Shown here: one piece after another, positions 1,584-31,400 of the stretch
How positions within the stretch are numbered: position 1 is the stretch's first letter
Layout of the letters: each line of letters starts with the position of its first letter
From: Beta vulgaris subsp. vulgaris
Taxonomy: Eukaryota; Streptophyta; Magnoliopsida; Caryophyllales; Amaranthaceae
Reading direction: 5' to 3'
NCBI RefSeq assembly: GCF_026745355.1
Contig: NC_079208.1
Span: 15,810,455 to 15,874,454, forward strand
Length of the DNA stretch: 64,000 nt
Position numbers and translations under genes: made by a program
The notes under the pieces: generated by a model
Database searches by the model: none
The model's input: only the letters and a program-made list of their open reading frames with translations
What the model was told of the DNA's origin: nothing

Positions 1584-2140
1584 TTTTTTTTGGCAAATGA
1601 AGAATTATATTACCAAAAGAATGGTGATTACAGATGCTAATCACACAAGCTAGCATAGCTACATAACACCCTAGACCAGGCAAACCTACATAATCATACT
1701 ATGCCTATCCTCATCAGAGCATCTAACAGCAACCCTAAACAAAATATCTCTAATTACATCATCCACTGAGTGAAGAGTATGAGAGAAAATTTGACTGTTA
1801 CGTTGCCTCCATATTGCATAAAAACATTCAGTGACTGCCATGACAAAAAATTTCCCTTACTTCTGTTTTGCTTTGCTGTGAAGGCTGCTACTAATGGTAG
1901 TAAGTCTCACCTTGTTACACACACCCTGCCACACCTCATTAGCATAATCACAAAGAAAGAAAAGGTGTTGAACAGATTCATCATCCCCCCTACATAAACT
2001 ACAAGTAGTATTGCAGTTTACACCCCACAAACTTAACCTGTCTGTAGTAGCCATTCTGTTATGCAACCCAAGCCATAGAATAAACTTACTCTTTGGAGCT
2101 GCAGCATTATTACAAATTACTTAATTAAAAATTACAACAT
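1584..2140 (-). mobile_element. 5'-truncated L1-type LINE insertion with target-site duplication
   Basis: On the minus strand this is the 3' end of a LINE. It carries a zinc-binding reverse-transcriptase domain (zf-RVT: 1857-2066 has WGVNC..CSLC..ESVQHLFFLC..VW), then a 3' tail ending in poly(A), seen as the T-run at 1584-1591. A duplication TATTTCTTGTAATTTTT flanks it at 1567-1583 and 2141-2157. The 5' end is truncated at about 2140. Only the C-terminal domain survives, so it is inactive. Confidence 0.85.
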
Positions 2141-2167
2141 TATTTCTTGTAATTTTTAATTAAGTAA
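2117..2167. repeat. Perfect 21-bp inverted repeat at the LINE 5' junction
   Basis: The arms at 2117-2137 and 2147-2167 are exact reverse complements separated by a 9-bp spacer. The right arm is target DNA continuing out of the LINE target-site duplication. The left arm lies inside the LINE 5' end, so it looks like target DNA copied in reverse during integration. Confidence 0.8.
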
Positions 2168-2879
2168 AAATATGATCATGTGAGATCTTGTTAAATTCAT
2201 GTCAATATATATTATCCAAATATCAACTTTTTATAAATTGTTGGTTATTGATGATTAGAAATATTAAGGTTTTAATTAGTATCTCAAATGTGCACCAAAA
2301 AGATGTATATATTAATAAAAGCCGAAGGGGGTAAAGGAATATTGTGTACAATAAAATAAATATTAATGTATGTTAATCTAAAATGATGTATTTTAATTCT
2401 AATGATCAAACTTAATTATAGTGTTCTTTTGAGTTATTCAAGATCTTCATTCCAATACAAAGTTAAGTTAAATTTATAAACATTTTAAAACTTAGAAATA
2501 CGCATTTTGAATTTTGAAAATTTGTAAATCTTCATTTACAATAAATCTGGACATGATAATTTTTTTACTTTTCTCTCCTTCCAAATTCGGAGGTATTTTC
2601 ATCAAATAGAAAACATAACTTATCGACTTTTCTCCCCTTTCCTTCTCATTTTCTGACTTAAGTACCAAACATAGTTTTTTTTATATCATTTCATTGTATC
2701 AAACAATGAGACAGATAGTCATCTATCTTCTCTTCCCATCCTTTCTTCTCCCCTTTTTATTTCACTAAAAAATATACCAAACAAGTTGTAAATGCAGTTT
2801 ATAATTGACTTGATTAATAATTGAACTTGTGATTCTTTCTTGAAAATTAAGAATCTAAATGTTTCATTTAAAAATTATG
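2168..2879. other. AT-rich intergenic DNA, no feature recognised
   Basis: No reading frame, RNA gene or clear element ends were found. There are scattered T-rich and A-rich tracts only. Confidence 0.5.
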
Positions 2880-22400: not shown

Positions 22401-25400
22401 TTAAGGGAACAATGGATAATGTTTGGAATTTGAAAAAAAATCCTGGAAAGCTTATGTTGATTCTCGGGGGAAATGATACACCCAGAAATCTTACACTGCC
22501 TTTAGCAAGAATACTCCAACAAAATTCATTACCCTCCTCAACAAAGGCCTAAGAGTGAACAATAAAGAAATACTGGCAAAATACTTGGGATGCCCGATGG
22601 ACGTGACATGCCACTCGCTCAAAGTCTTCCAAGATCTACCTGAGAAAATAGTAAGCACAATCACTTCTTGGAAAATTTCAACCCTAAATCAGGTAGGTAA
22701 GATCCTCCTCATCAATAGTATCCTAATTGCTTATGCTTCTTACATTATGGATACTTTCATATTTCCATAAAAGATCCTTAAGAAAGCTTCCTCTACTATC
22801 GTAAAATTCTGGTGGAGTACAAAGTTCAACAAAAGCCTATTCATTAGAGGAAAAAAGCCTACTTGAAGTACACAAAAATAATGGAGGTTTAGGTTTGAGA
22901 AATCTAGAAAATCTAAACAGAGCAATGGTTTTCAAGCAGGCTTGGAGGATTCAAAATAGCCTGTCCTTTTTTGTGAGTAGAGTTTTTATAGCCAACTATT
23001 CTAAAATTAGTTTGAAAAAAGCCTTTGCGGGAAATTTTCCTCAACTTGTTCTTGGAGAGGGAGAAGTATCAAGAGAAGGGTCAACGACCTAGCTTTAGGA
23101 GTGGGGAAGATTATAAGAGATGGGAAATCTACTCTTGTTTTGGGTGCCCATTGGGTGGGAAGAAGAGAAATTCAATTTAATCAAGGGCTAGACCAGCAGC
23201 TCCTAAGTGCCCAACTTGGGTTTGTAATTTAATCACAGAAGATAGAGAGTGAGATAAGGATAAATTAAATACCTGGTTCGAGCCAGCCACTACAAGGTCA
23301 ATTTTATCGGTCCACTTACCATATCAAACAGGAAAAGATGAGTTTTACTGGGAAGCAAGATCACACGGCAATTATGAGATCAAATCTGTTTACTGGCGCA
23401 TAAAAAACCAATCATAAAGTCCAAAGGATAATTCTAACTTATAGAAGAAATTCTGCAATCAAAAATTCAGGCCAAAATGAAATTTTTTCTATTGGAAGCT
23501 AGTCAATGGTGCTTTAGCCACCGGAGTAAACCTTAGCAAAAGGAAAATCCTAAGCGAGAGCCCTTTCCCCCTTTGTGGGAAAAGAAGGAGTCGGATACTC
23601 AACTCTTTAAGAACTGTGAAATATCTATGAGAATTTGGAAAAGCTCTACCCTTGGTATCATATTGGAGGGATATCCAAAAATTTCGGAAAATATATGGTC
23701 AAGAAATTGGTTATGATACCTCATGTAGGAGAAAGATCAAGATTATAGAGTCGTTGAATTTGTATGAATCCTATGGAGCATCTAGCTCTTAAGAAACAAA
23801 GCATTTTTTCACCCCTTTGAGACTATAAAACCGAGTGCAGCTATTAACATCCTAAATCAGTGGAGATCTCGATGGCTTAACCTACGAGGCAGAAATAAAG
23901 ACAAGTGGAGCCCGAAGAGGAATTGAAGAGATCGGACTAAATTACCAAAAAGGGAATGTCAGTAGAGCTTCAACTGGCCAGATGAGGGGACACAGAGGAG
24001 ATTAGTCATTGGCGGAGCTTGGAAAAGGAACAAAGATGTGGATAATGATCCGAGAAGCACAACTTTTGGGTAGGTACTCTTGGAAGATAATAAAGAAGTT
24101 AGTTTAGGAAGTAGAAAGATTGCGGCTGGATCAACACTATAGTCAGAGACCTATGCACTCCTTTATAACCTAAAGATCATGATAAGTCAAGGAATCATTA
24201 ATCTTGAGGTCTGGACGGATTGTGAACAAGTTATCATAGGTATTCAAGATATCACTAAAGCAGCAGCGCATACAAAAATGATTATGGGACACATTATCAA
24301 CTACACCAGAAGTTTCAATGTGTTCCGAATTATTAAAGTTGACAAGGAAAAAATTGCCAAGGCTCACTTCCTAGCAGCCTCTGAAAGGAAGAGATGTATT
24401 GTTATTTCCTCGTTTTCAATTTATACGTTGTCAGAAAAAAAAGGAACTGCAATGAACAATCTACCAATTTTTTTGTACTAATTACCATATTTGTCATTGC
24501 CAATTCAAACCAGTTTCAGCACCACAATTTATAATCATTCGTGGACACCAACAAACATACACTTATATACCATATTAACCACTAAGTCTGCTATATTTTA
24601 TAAACACATCATATTCAGTATTCAGCTTTATAGCAGAATAACCCAACTGAGCTAAGAAACCAAATTTTTATTTCTATTATTTAATCTAATAGAAATAAAC
24701 AAAAATAACTCTACAAACAGAAATACTTCCTCCGTTTTTTTTAGATGTTACACTTTCCTAAAATTGCATGGTTGTAAATAGATGTTACACTTTTTAAAAT
24801 TTCCTTATTTAGTAACTTTTTCCTTGTGAAATGTCCATATTACCCTTACTAACTACCCATTTAAAAATTAAAACACTCTTAATCTACCCTATTAAATCCC
24901 TAACTAATCTAATCAGATTTTAACCATTCCCACCAAAATTAAACCCCCCAACTACCTTTTCATCTTCCCCATGATCATTTAATACATTCAACCCCCCTCC
25001 CCCAACTGATTCATCCCCCCATTAAAGTTCTTCCCCAATTCCCCAACCCCTCCTATTCCCTAACCCTAAAACTTCGACCTTCTCTCTCTCCCTCAAAACT
25101 TCATCTTTTCTCTCTACTTCCATTTCTCCTCTTCTGATCTTCTCTTCCTCTCTCTACTGGACTTCAGTTTCTCTCTCTAGATTTCTTCACTTCCTCTTCA
25201 AATTTCCCCTTTAAACTTTCGAAATCTCCATTGTTCTCTTGAAATCCTCACTGTTTTCTCTGTATTTCATCTTCAAGTCTTCAAAAACCCTAGATCTTCT
25301 TTCATCTTTTCAGAAAAAAAAACCCTAAAAAATGCCGAAAAATTATGTGCCTGATCTCCAACCCCTTGTTGACGCCTTGTTCCAAACTGACGATGCTGAT

Positions 25401-28400
25401 GAGTCTGATTCCATTTGCGAGTTGATGCTTGCATTTCAGACTGGGTCTCCTTGGCAAGGAGGCTCTATGACAGTGGAGATGCAAAAGCACTTGCTTCGCC
25501 CTTATGCCTTCAAGGCTTTGGGTGTGGTGGTTGATGAGTTTTATCTGGTTACGGGTTACCAAGGGAATTCCGTCCCTTTCTTCTTCCAACCCAAAAAAAA
25601 TGAGTCCCCAATTTAAGCAGATCTTGGACCCCAGACCAATTTCACACAGGTTGAGGCCTAGATCGAGGGTTGAGGAAGAAGGGGATGGGGAAAAAGGTAA
25701 GAAAATTCTCCGTTCTACCCATGAGATTGTTTGCGCTTTAAAGGCTCTGTGTTTTTACACTGTTGGGAAAAATGGTAAAGTTCAAGAGGTGAAGGAGAAT
25801 GAGAAGGATAAGGGGAAGGAGAAGGAGAAGAAGAAGGAAATTGTGGGGTGCAAGAGGAAGGGGAAATGTCAGTGTTTGGGTTGTACTTCTACGGCCTTCA
25901 ACGTCTACGGCGATGAAGGCACTGTTTATGCTATGTATGTTGAGTCTGATGGGGGGTTTAAGGTCTTTGACGTGGTTGAAGAACTGCTGGATGATGAGGA
26001 GGCTGAGGATGGTGAGGGTGAGCTTGAAATTCCAATGAGTCCCTGCACTTCATCAGAACTTGATCCTGATACTCATTGCTTCCTTCTCAGGAGAAAGGAG
26101 AGTACTTTGACTCCCTGAGGTTCTATCATCCTAACTCTTTTAATTGCCTTCTGTTTTTTGTTGCCTTTTAATTAATTTGAGTCCCTGAAATTCCTATTGG
26201 TTTGTTGTTGGCTATTATTGGTTGCCTTGTATATTTTTGGCTGGCTGTTTTTGGTTGCCTATGAAATATGTTGGTTGGGTTTTGTTTTTGGTTGCCTATA
26301 AATATGTTGGTTGGGTTCTGTTTTTTGGTTGCCTATAAATATGTTGGTTGGGTTTTGTTTTTGGTTGCCTATAAATATGTTGGTTGGGTTCTATTTTTTG
26401 GTTGCCTATAAATATGCTGGTTGGGTTCTGTTTTTGGTTGCCTATAAAGATGTTGGTTGGGTTCTGTTTATGGTTGTTGGCTAATATTGGTTGCCTATGA
26501 ATATATTTTGTTGCCTATAAATCTGTTGGTTGGCTTCTGTTTTTGGTTGGCTTCTGTTTTTTGTGGGATTGTGTATTTCGTTGGCTATGAATATTTGTTG
26601 GTTGGCTCTTTTTGGTTGCCTATGAATCTGTTGGTTGGCTTATGTTTGTGGTTGGCTTCTGTTTTTTGTTGGCTTTTGTTTTTGGTTGATTGTGTATTTT
26701 GGTTGGCTTTTGGTTGCCTTGTGTATTTGGTTGCCATGTATTTTTGGGAAGCCTATGGGTGTTGGTTTGGATTGGAGGTTTGAGGATGAACAAATGGCTA
26801 ATAATGTACTTCTGTTTTTGGTTGGCTTGTGTTTTTTGGTTGCCTTCTGTTTTTGGGTGCTGAGTTAAGTGAAGTCCCCCACTGTTTACACAATGAGTCC
26901 CTCTTGCTTCCCCCCTTGAGTCCCAATATTGTTTTAAAAAGCTAAATCCAAATGATGAAGGGACTCATACATTGGGCTTGAAGAGCAATAGATGATTTGC
27001 TCCTTATTGGTGTTAAACCAATAAGTTGAGGTTTTAAATCATTTATTGCTTCCTCAATGAACCATTGAATTAACCCTGATGGATTTTAAAAACACACATC
27101 TTACTTTAAACTTGTTGACATGCAAAAGAATAAAAACAACCATAAATGCTTAACTTTCATTAAATGCTTGTATCACTGCTTATACAAACCAGTCCTTCAA
27201 CTTGTACAAAATAGTCTAATAACTAAACAAGAACCCCCCAAAAACTTCCTGGTTTGCTTAGAAATGTTGCTTCACGTTGTCCATAATCTTTAACAAAAAG
27301 TCTTGTAAATAGTATACCTGTGTATTTGTGCAAGTAGATCCTTCATCTTCTTCTATACTAGATATATACCAAAAAGTTGCTCCCCATTCTTTTCCTTCAT
27401 ACACAGTGTAGTTATGTTCAAAAATTAGTTGCCACATCTTCTGCCCATTCTACTCTTGAGCTGCATCTAAGTAGTCAAATGCTTGCTCCCCATTCTTTTC
27501 CTTCATACACAGTGTAGTTATGTTCAAAAATTAGTTGCCACATCTTCTGCCCATTCTACTCTTGAGCTGCATCTAAGTAGTCAAATGCTTCTCCTACATT
27601 CACAAACCTCTCATTCAAGTATGTAACTGCCTCATCTATCACAGCTTGGTCCACTTCCACATTTTCTGGAAGTAATCCCAGTCTCTCTAACTTTCTTTTT
27701 GCATGGTGTGGATTCTTGAAATTGTTCCCCCCTTTGCACTTTAGTATTTCTACCATAACATATTGTAATTGCAACCAAGTGTACTTCAAAACTTCTGGGT
27801 CAAAGAAATCATAACAGTCCTGCACTCTTAAAATCAGTTCATCTAGGTTCTTAGGAAATGATTGATATTGTAGTGCTTGAATTGCTCTAAAAAACCCCAA
27901 GTCTAGCACATTTAAGTCAGGGGACTGAGCTGGCTGATTGATGAGTTGGATATTGAATCCATTCTGAGTTGCTGCTGCTATAAAGAATGGGTCTGATGCA
28001 TGAATGTGAGGTCTAACATTGTCTTATTGTATGTAGATTTCTTTGGACACACCTTCTGGCCAATTCCTCATTATGGCAGGTATGATAGTGTTAACTATCA
28101 TATCCCTCATAACTGGTAGTGTAACACTTTCAATTGCCTTTGTCAACATAGTACCTGCCCTTCTGTTTTTTGTTGAATACTTAGCTCTTGCATACTCAAC
28201 AAAAGGGTAGATACCAAATTTCCCATCATGTATCATCCTTCCTCACTGTCCTTAATAGGTCTAGATGTGGCACACATGAACATGGCTTTTATCTTAAACC
28301 TCTTGGACTGACAGCAACTATAAGGGTCATCTTCAGCAGGAAGCAAGTAAAACCTTCTCATATCTGGACTTAAATAAAACCACTTCTCATCTATGTGAAC

Positions 28401-31400
28401 AACATTTTGCATGTCAACAAATTTTGGTGGTTGTGTCCTTGTTGCTGGTAATATGTGTTGTAACACCCACTTCATTCTTTGAATCTTATGATCTTCTGTC
28501 AGTTTTGGGTGGGTGCTGCTAGTGTGACTTCTCAGCTTGCCCCGTTTCAGTAGACTGTAAACAGTGGAGGGGGGGATTTTAAGACATCCAGCAAATGCCC
28601 TTATACTTGTCCTCAGATTAAGTGGGACTGACTGAAGCCATTTGTCATCATATACTTTAAGCTTCCTACCACATCTTCCTGCTTTTTTGTTTCTCACATC
28701 TATGGCATGCCCAACTTCTCTCTGTTTTTTTGCATCTTTCCATATCCTATCTAATGTCATCCTACTTATGCCATGCTTTTTTGCTATTTCTGTTTTTAAA
28801 CCCCATGCAAATTTACCATTTATTTCAGAGGTAAGTAGGTCATCAACCAACATTCTTCTTTTTGTTAAAGTTAAATGTGGTTTTTGGGTTGTTGAACTTA
28901 CATTGTTTTCTATTTCTGTGTTTTGTTGTTGTAGGTTACCCTGCTGATTTGGTTGGTCTGCTTGAATGCCATCTGCTACTGCTGTACCTCCATCATCATC
29001 ATCCTCTGTGTCATCATCACTGTTGTAATGTGTCCACATCTCATGCATCAGCAACTCATCCTCCATGCCTTCTATTTCCAGCAGCTCTTGAAGGCCAAAC
29101 TCCCCTCCCTCATCTGCTGACCCCATGTGATTAAGCTGAAGCTGATTTTTTGAAGACCGAAGTGTGAAGTTTTTTGGTTGCCTACTTCAGTTCTTAATTT
29201 AGTAGAAATTTTTTTGTAATTGGTCCTGTGCAATGTGTGTGCAGTGAATTATGGGAACAATCTGATTTTTTGTAAAAAACTAAACCATGGTGCTAAACAA
29301 TATTTTCTCTCTCCTCATTTTGGGAAATAAGCCCCCATTTAATGTTGGGGGTTTATATAGAGGATATAGTATGGTAATGGTATGCTTAAAGTAACTTTAA
29401 AATTGGGTAATTTAAATTTTTTGCAAATTTTCAGCTTTGTGAAAATTTTGGAGGGAAAACAATTTGGTGCCAAAAAAAATTGGCTCCCCCACATTTCTCT
29501 CTCCTCAGCCGAGTGAAATTGGGAGGGAACCAACTAGTGGTCCCTCTTTTCTCTCTCCTCCCTTCCCTTAAACCCCCCATGTGCAATGGTCCCCACACCT
29601 TTAATCCCCCTACCCTTATTTTTCTCCTAATCACTCCTCCAATTTTTGCCTAGAAAACCACAATTTTTGAAAGTGTAACATCTAAAAAAAAACGGAGGAA
29701 GTATATGAAAACACGAGGACCTATAAACTAAACGAATACTATTTTACTATAAGAAATTATGTGACGAATAACTTAAATCCAAATATTGTACCATGAATTG
29801 TTGTATTTGTTATTGATGGTAAATTTATAACTACATAATTTATTGTTGTTTAAGATAATTGTTTTAATTATGACCTTAAGATTTCATGTTAGGAAATTAT
29901 TTGTGGAATGATATTATGGACCTTACAAATAATTTTAACCAACCTCGAGTCATGATTGAGGACTTTAATGAGGTTCTATGTCAAAGTGAGAAAATAGGGG
30001 AAGGCATAAGGCCGACCTTTACGTGTCCACTACCGATAGATATGGCCTCTTGGACCTGGGTCATGGACCAAAATTTACATGGACTAATAAAAGAGAAAAG
30101 TCCTATACTTGAGAGACTAGACAGGAGGTGGGCAAACTCTAATTAGATTGACACCTTCTCCAATATTTAAAGGGTTAAATTGGTTGTACTGGATTGGATT
30201 TCGCCAAATACAAACCTAGTCCATAATTTTTTGGATTCCAGAAATTGAGTCTAAAACCGATCCAAACTTTTTTTTTAAGTCCAGTCCAATCCGAAACTTT
30301 TTTCTTGAGTGCGAGTCTAATACAGTACAATATAAATATTATAATAATATTTTCCCAATATAGATTGACAATGTTAACTAATAATTAAAGGAAAAAATTT
30401 CAAGGATAATACAACCTTTAGGCGGTCTGCGCAAATTAAGTCAAGCTTTAGATTAAATTTGAATAAACAAAGCTTATGAGGGTAGCTGCTTTAAATGGGT
30501 TAAATGATAAAGTAACCTGTTATCATAGGTAACCTGACCACGTGTCTTAATTTTATTGATTTAGATTTTTAATTTTACTTTTATTTAAATTCTTAATATT
30601 AATAAAGTAAAAAAGAAACTAAAAATAAAACCGATACCCTTCCCCACCTCCCTTTCCCCACCGCTGCAAACACCTCCTCTCTTGTGCTCTCTACTTGTGA
30701 CAACCCTCTCCCCAACCCTCATGCGTCTCCCACTTCCCCTGTCCCCCATCCCCGCTATCTGCAACCAACCCACCCACCCCGTCCGCACACCTCTCCTATC
30801 CCCTTTCCCTACCCCATGCCTGCAAACATCACCCACTCTTGAAACCATAGAAGTGAAATACTTTATATTCCTTAAATTTCTTTTCAATGTCACCCAAGGT
30901 TTCAATGGTTCTTTTTCTATCAAAGGCTCTAACTCTTTGATTGATTGATTCTTATGCCCACAAACATATTGTTGAACTTTCCTGTCAATTTTATGAATTG
31001 GGTCAGTTGATTTCTTCGAAACAATATCACGAATTGAGGGAATTGAAGGACATATCAGGAATTTCACGAGATCTTATAAAATTACATGAATAAAATAGTT
31101 TTAGAATCGAATGAAAATCATACTTAAATAAGCCTTCAAAACAAAGTTTCCATACAAAAATGACATTTCAGAGGTGGATTTCAGCTAGGGTGGGGTTAGA
31201 GTGTTAGTTGTGGTGGGGAGGAGGAGAAGGAGAGGTTGGAGAAGATGTGGAGTGAGAGTGGCGATGAAGGAAGGAGAAAAAAGGTTGGAGGAGATGAATT
31301 AGTCAAAGAAAAAGAAAATTAAAAAAACTACTCATTTTCAAATCACCGTTCACCTAAACTTATTGAAAGATTATACCCTTATAAGCTTTGCTTATTCAGT

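Follow-up and report, generated by a model that had tools for sequence, protein, structure and literature searches.

We describe a mariner transposon of beet in which the transposase gene is accompanied by a second, convergent gene that co-occurs with the transposase in most of the relatives detected, is under purifying selection and encodes a conserved N-terminal domain. The element occupies positions 24726–29701 of a 64,000-nucleotide stretch of Beta vulgaris subsp. vulgaris DNA (NC_079208.1, positions 15,810,455 to 15,874,454; hereafter the window). It belongs to the DD39D plant mariners (PlantMar) and is complete, with TA on either side and matched ends. The second gene, open reading frame 2 (ORF2), is probably a real accessory gene of the element lineage, a reading to which we give a probability of about 85%. 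Because neither gene is intact in the window copy, the claims must rest on its relatives.

Co-occurrence of ORF2 and the transposase

The beet assembly (569 Mb, 20 contigs) was searched with the window transposase, which gave at least 127 matches (738 candidates, 125 scored) merging into 113 loci. We fetched the longer loci at ranks 2–20 of this list (L021–L039) and the more distant L040 (rank 37, 63% identity), together with elements of distant families, namely L041, L043 and L042, with transposase identities of 54%, 59% and 41%, respectively. ORF2 was present in all 20 relatives from L021 to L040, at a position comparable to that of the window ORF2 behind its leader. Both genes are open in L022 (ORF2 of 266 codons, transposase of 523) and L024 (264 and 504), and at least one gene is broken in most of the remaining fetched copies. 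The same kind of ORF2 (type 1) is carried by L041 and L043; it was not found in the L042 element.

Used as a genome query, the window ORF2 gave 148 matches in 84 loci, 61 of which are no more than 12 kb from a listed transposase locus (about 0.5% would be expected by chance), and all 61 are arranged tail to tail. When the L043 ORF2 was added as a query, 85 of the 113 listed transposase loci had an ORF2 within 12 kb, every one convergent and none in another orientation, with a median distance of 2010 bp between ORF2 and transposase matches among the matches listed. Sorted by identity to the window transposase, ORF2 stands near 43 of 47 listed transposases at 75% or more, 19 of 23 at 60–75%, 16 of 20 at 52–60%, 5 of 8 at 46–52% and 2 of 15 below 46%. 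An earlier note, made from the letters of the window, had proposed that the second gene lies tail to tail with the transposase gene and travels with the element; both proposals hold for the relatives, the latter also in view of the selection described below. Since many copies carry ORF2, confinement of the gene to a single copy, or its origin as a host fragment in one copy, is excluded for the beet genome.

At the place and in the orientation of ORF2, L042 has a different ORF of 128 codons (1807–2220, plus strand), which we call type 2 and which belongs to distant mariner families of the beet genome. It has 48 genome matches with identities of 34–100% and lies within 12 kb of 7 of the 28 listed transposase loci that are without type 1, in all seven cases convergently; a convergent second ORF of type 1 or type 2 is thereby found at 92 of the 113 listed loci. 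The commonest core of type 2 in nine aligned copies reads EESxLLRKLDRxExxSSY, from which some copies deviate, and sequence methods gave no connection between the two types. Five transposase matches of equal score and identity (C11:680505, C11:22790834, C2:52090412, C10:54937971 and C10:53903537) suggest that a family like that of L042 has multiplied recently.

Selection on ORF2

The ratio of nonsynonymous to synonymous changes (dN/dS) was estimated by NG86 among 13 open ORF2 copies (247–266 codons). This comparison between copies, which the earlier note had proposed, comprised 78 pairs with a median of 0.39; 68 of them lay between 0.3 and 0.5, two lower (the least 0.20) and eight higher (one of them 1.36, with very few changes). 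In neutral simulations of six pairs, 300 for each, values as low as those observed occurred 0, 1, 23, 0, 26 and 14 times, and three of the tested pairs are clearly below neutral. Differences at codon positions 1 to 3 of the open copies amount to 0.097, 0.083 and 0.154, an excess at the third position. Along the protein, dN/dS is lowest in the Cys region (0.28), the N domain (0.32) and the Lys/Glu stretch (0.34) and higher in the C-terminal tail (0.54) and residues 76–125 (0.63). The C-x-C-x2-C motif is intact in 12 of the 13 open copies, and the start and the C terminus are retained within the family. Among five copies compared, ORF2 differs by 1.4–9.6% and the transposase by 1.6–3.5%, and ORF2 is the more divergent in nine of ten pairs.

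In the window element, L021, L022, L024 and L036, the transposase parts differ by 1.6–3.5% and the DNA upstream of the transposase by 1.4–15.3%, depending on the pair. These copies look like mosaics, as from recombination or gene conversion.

The ORF2 protein and the repeats between the genes

Between families whose transposases are 54–59% identical, ORF2 is clearly alike only over its first ~65 residues. Open copies have in this N domain the motif GSPWPRRLY[DE]SG, followed by ALG. AlphaFold2 predicted five helices for five ORF2 sequences, with a block-mean pLDDT (the confidence score of the model) of 81–85 over residues 11–70, 72 over the first ten residues and below 50 beyond. Besides this predicted helical N domain, the protein has a Lys/Glu-rich stretch whose length varies, a cluster of Cys residues and an acidic tail. 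The Cys cluster, the acidic stretch and the CT-rich leader of the gene had all been described in the earlier note and are present, and its failure to recognise a family agrees with our searches: no Pfam match of ORF2 reached the cut-off, including those to DNA-binding families, and nothing in the PDB matched by sequence. The Myb family is likewise absent from the Pfam scans, which a far relative could escape. In the structure comparison suggested earlier, Foldseek and VIA-align gave no telling match to the predicted ORF2 structure. The protein database matches comprise P0001 and P0002 (Logan, nameless) and three proteins named as Beta, of which P0004 and P0003 are 99% and 85% identical to the L043 ORF2 over the first 74 residues. 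All database relatives that bear names are from beet.

Family-specific repeat arrays lie between the gene ends in the window family, L040 and L042. The TTGGTTGCC-type arrays of the window family vary in length among copies; those of L042 have units of 81 and 92 bp, and L040 has a 14-bp unit among others.

Transposase and termini

The elements are two-gene DD39D plant mariners. TA flanks both sides of all 22 elements in which both ends were found, the window element included. With at most 7 errors, terminal inverted repeats of the CTYCCTCCGT kind form the left end in the window and in 20 of 20 loci, all 20 with TA, and the right end in the window and in 18 of 20; the right ends of L032 and L037 were not recognised within these 7 errors. 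The catalytic spacing of 122 residues (D1–D2) and 39 residues (D2–D3) occurs in three of the five transposases tested with the pattern (L024, L041 and L043). L022 was missed through one changed neighbour residue, and the open transposase piece of L042, which does not match the pattern, stops short of the third D. For the window transposase, counting in pieces gives a D2–D3 spacing of 39, beside a stop codon. Helix-turn-helix scans of the transposase N-terminus gave DUF7769 (E 6e-5), HTH_23 (E 5e-4) and HTH_Tnp_Tc3_2 (E 0.002), all below the curated cut-offs. The TA duplications, matched ends and minus-strand DD39D transposase first read from the window are borne out by its sequence and by the relatives.

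Most fetched elements are 3.9–5.1 kb long. L023 (~7.4 kb) is lengthened by insertions within ORF2 and L033 (~6.0 kb) by insertions within the leader.

Possible function of ORF2

ORF2 is probably a lasting part of the lineage, maintained under selection, and starts near the end opposite the transposase with a leader of its own. Its product, small and without a recognised catalytic domain, might act in trans for the element as a regulator targeting the DNA or chromatin of its own element, perhaps via the family-specific tandem repeats between both genes, and might relieve host silencing as VANC does in VANDAL elements. A small, changing protein with no recognised catalytic domain, beside a transposase and family-specific arrays, recalls VANC, and by this analogy a VANC-like anti-silencing factor acting on the element's own DNA or chromatin is our favoured, though tentative, reading, at somewhat less than an even chance.

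Several observations weigh against an accessory gene or against this role for it. Within 12 kb of 28 of the 113 listed transposase loci there is no type 1 ORF2. The dN/dS sample consists of open copies only, and the three tested pairs with the fewest changes are not clearly distinct from neutral. The Pfam and PDB searches found no homologue of known function. The families of L041 and L043, which have ORF2, show no long array between the genes, which weakens the idea of repeat binding. The available part of a study of the bamboo mariner Ppmar2 describes a yeast assay in which a transposase cassette is paired with a non-autonomous element (PMC9632168), so that not every plant mariner depends on such a second protein for its movement.

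Sequence cannot decide between a regulator and a partner of the transposase, and the latter is the main rival and the next best explanation, although we regard it as rather unlikely. ORF2 might then serve in DNA binding, nuclear import or complex assembly, like ORF1 of PIF/Harbinger or TnpA, the second protein of CACTA elements. The pairing with the transposase, fixed across families, would suit such a partner, as would the Lys-rich stretch and the Cys cluster, and PIF/Harbinger requires two element proteins, according to the portion of PMC2836001 available to us. However, Ppmar2 moves in yeast when a transposase cassette supplies the element protein (PMC9632168, as far as its accessible text goes), the long repeats lie between the gene ends and not under the termini, no DNA-binding family reached the Pfam cut-off, and ORF2 diverges more than the transposase in nine of ten pairs. 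A self-limiting regulator that represses rather than helps the element would fit the anatomy equally well, and copy-number regulators exist in other transposons; no observation here bears on the sign of the effect, and we consider repression quite improbable.

Explanations that deny ORF2 a function fare worse against the data on selection and conservation. A fragment of a host gene, captured at an early date and since retained as a functionless passenger, might account for the lack of a homologue elsewhere, for the many broken copies and for the 44 of 129 ORF2 loci without a listed transposase nearby. We do not take these 44 loci as host genes because several of them have stops and look like remnants and because the transposase list is incomplete. 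Such a fragment is very improbable given a dN/dS well under neutral in three of six tested pairs (with the median noted above), a start and C terminus that are kept, and a spread over families with transposases only 54–59% identical. A chance frame in non-coding element DNA, kept through copy number alone, could draw on the low-complexity parts of ORF2 and on the CT-rich leader and GT-rich tail that adjoin it, but the purifying selection, the third-position excess and a protein domain common to distant families make it scarcely credible.

A wider form of the anti-silencing proposal, which we hold to be unlikely, might be considered. The convergent second gene could be original to plant DD39D mariners, with types 1 and 2 having arisen from one gene and diverged past recognition, and could encode an element-specific anti-silencing factor. 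Animal mariners have about one-third of the length of plant mariners, and such a gene would explain the threefold difference; its rapid change and its lack of likeness to any known family would be why annotation has passed it over.

Comparison with known transposons

The beet elements share with PlantMar elements (Vulmar1 of beet, Soymar1, Osmar, Ppmar and Dcmar) the TA duplication, ends of the CTTCCTCCGT type, a DD39D transposase whose catalytic D residues are separated by 122 and 39 residues and, in most fetched elements, a length of 3.9–5.1 kb. They depart from the rule of a sole transposase by regularly holding a second convergent gene under selection. Vulmar1 is 3909 bp long, near L041 (3952 bp) and L043 (3935 bp) in size, and may likewise hold ORF2. 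In the parts of the literature accessible to us, PlantMar elements have a typical structure of 2–6 kb with short ends (PMC7325037), mariner elements usually encode a single transposase (PMC4423477; PMC9632168), the beet Tc1-Mariner elements include one listed autonomous sequence, Vulmar (PMC11603912), and carrot mariners are characterised by their ends and transposase (PMC6881990). The statement in the earlier note that known plant mariner-like elements encode only the transposase agrees with these sources (PMC4423477, PMC9632168, PMC7325037, each in part). No two-gene plant mariner was found in the literature searched, which lay outside the original Vulmar1 and Osmar papers, and an earlier description is possible.

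The likeness to MuDR that had been noticed holds for the layout, in which two convergent genes, mudrA and mudrB, each start near one end, but not for the transposase or the target duplication. Neither a Mutator-like transposase nor a duplication of ~9 bp was found in the beet elements, which have TA, short ends and a DD39D transposase, whereas Mutator makes 9-bp duplications (PMC4423477, in the part available). As to mudrB, the comparison covered Pfam families, none of which was above the cut-off for ORF2.

VANDAL elements belong to a superfamily other than mariner. In the available parts of two Arabidopsis studies (PMC5735166, PMC10398659), VANC is a further protein encoded by the element, in part conserved and in part variable, with peptide repeats in the variable portions. 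VANDAL elements have family-specific tandem repeats, which expand and contract, in their non-coding DNA, and short motifs within these repeats are the VANC targets. Anti-silencing by ORF2 is putative; no Pfam match of ORF2 was above the cut-off, and L041 and L043, whose families have both genes, differ in the missing long array. PIF/Harbinger ORF1 and the CACTA second proteins resemble ORF2 as second element-encoded proteins (PMC4423477, in part), but these elements have other target sites and transposases, such as the three-base TAA/TTA site of Harbinger (same source) in contrast to TA in beet, and the Pfam scans found no Myb-like domain in ORF2.

In the textbook view, a mariner requires nothing but its transposase. 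For plants this picture changes with a whole set of mariner families in which a second gene is under selection, and such a gene would account for the long 'empty' part of the plant elements. ORF2 might also be a new candidate, alongside VANC and MURB, for a transposon protein that handles the host, with a relevance extending to the many Stowaway miniature inverted-repeat transposable elements mobilisable by mariner relatives.

The element in the window

The features of the window copy are collected in Table 1.

Table 1. Features of the mariner element and its target site, in window positions
Feature	Position	Strand	Basis or remark
TA target-site duplication, left	24724..24725	.	sequence
Left terminal inverted repeat	24726..24762	+	repeat and end comparison; inverted repeats ~37 bp
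ORF2 leader, CT-rich	24763..25331	+	element end to ATG, 606 bp
ORF2 (type 1), second gene, broken in this copy	25332..26118	+	relatives, comparison with open copies
Conserved N-terminal domain of ORF2, ~65–70 residues, predicted helical	25332..25556	+	cross-family alignment, model
Cys cluster of ORF2, C-x5-C-x-C-x2-C	25849..25884	+	sequence
Acidic stretch of ORF2	25976..26031	+	sequence
Tandem repeats between both gene ends, TTGGTTGCC/TTGGTTGG units	26218..26860	+	periods 17, 36 and 73 among others
106-bp tandem duplication over the transposase 3' end in this copy, 97% alike	27370..27581	.	repeat analysis
DD39D transposase gene, broken by frameshift and stop	27556..29126	-	open counterpart in L022, 523 codons
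TATA-box-like TATATAA upstream of the transposase ATG	29353..29359	-	pattern match, candidate only
Right terminal inverted repeat	29664..29701	-	repeat and end comparison
TA target-site duplication, right	29702..29703	.	sequence

The inner part of the left terminal inverted repeat has a second copy at 24779–24801. The TATATAA pattern was searched for in the ORF2 leader and not found. The window transposase, 95% and 97% identical to the open L022 transposase in its two pieces, has a frameshift near 28240 and an in-frame stop directly before the second catalytic D. A second gene of about 260 codons, once one base is allowed for, had been read from the window; the open copies compared have 247–266 codons, but a single base is too few, as the window ORF2 differs from the open L022 ORF2 of 266 codons by four single-base insertions or deletions and one 12-base gap. 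A GT-rich tail adjoins ORF2, besides the CT-rich leader.

Retroelement pieces lie on both sides of the element. The left one (24143–24481, plus strand) is RNase H-like (PF13456, E 1.1e-5), and the right one (29880–30146, plus strand), with no Pfam match, looks by our own reading like a piece of a LINE (long interspersed nuclear element) endonuclease.

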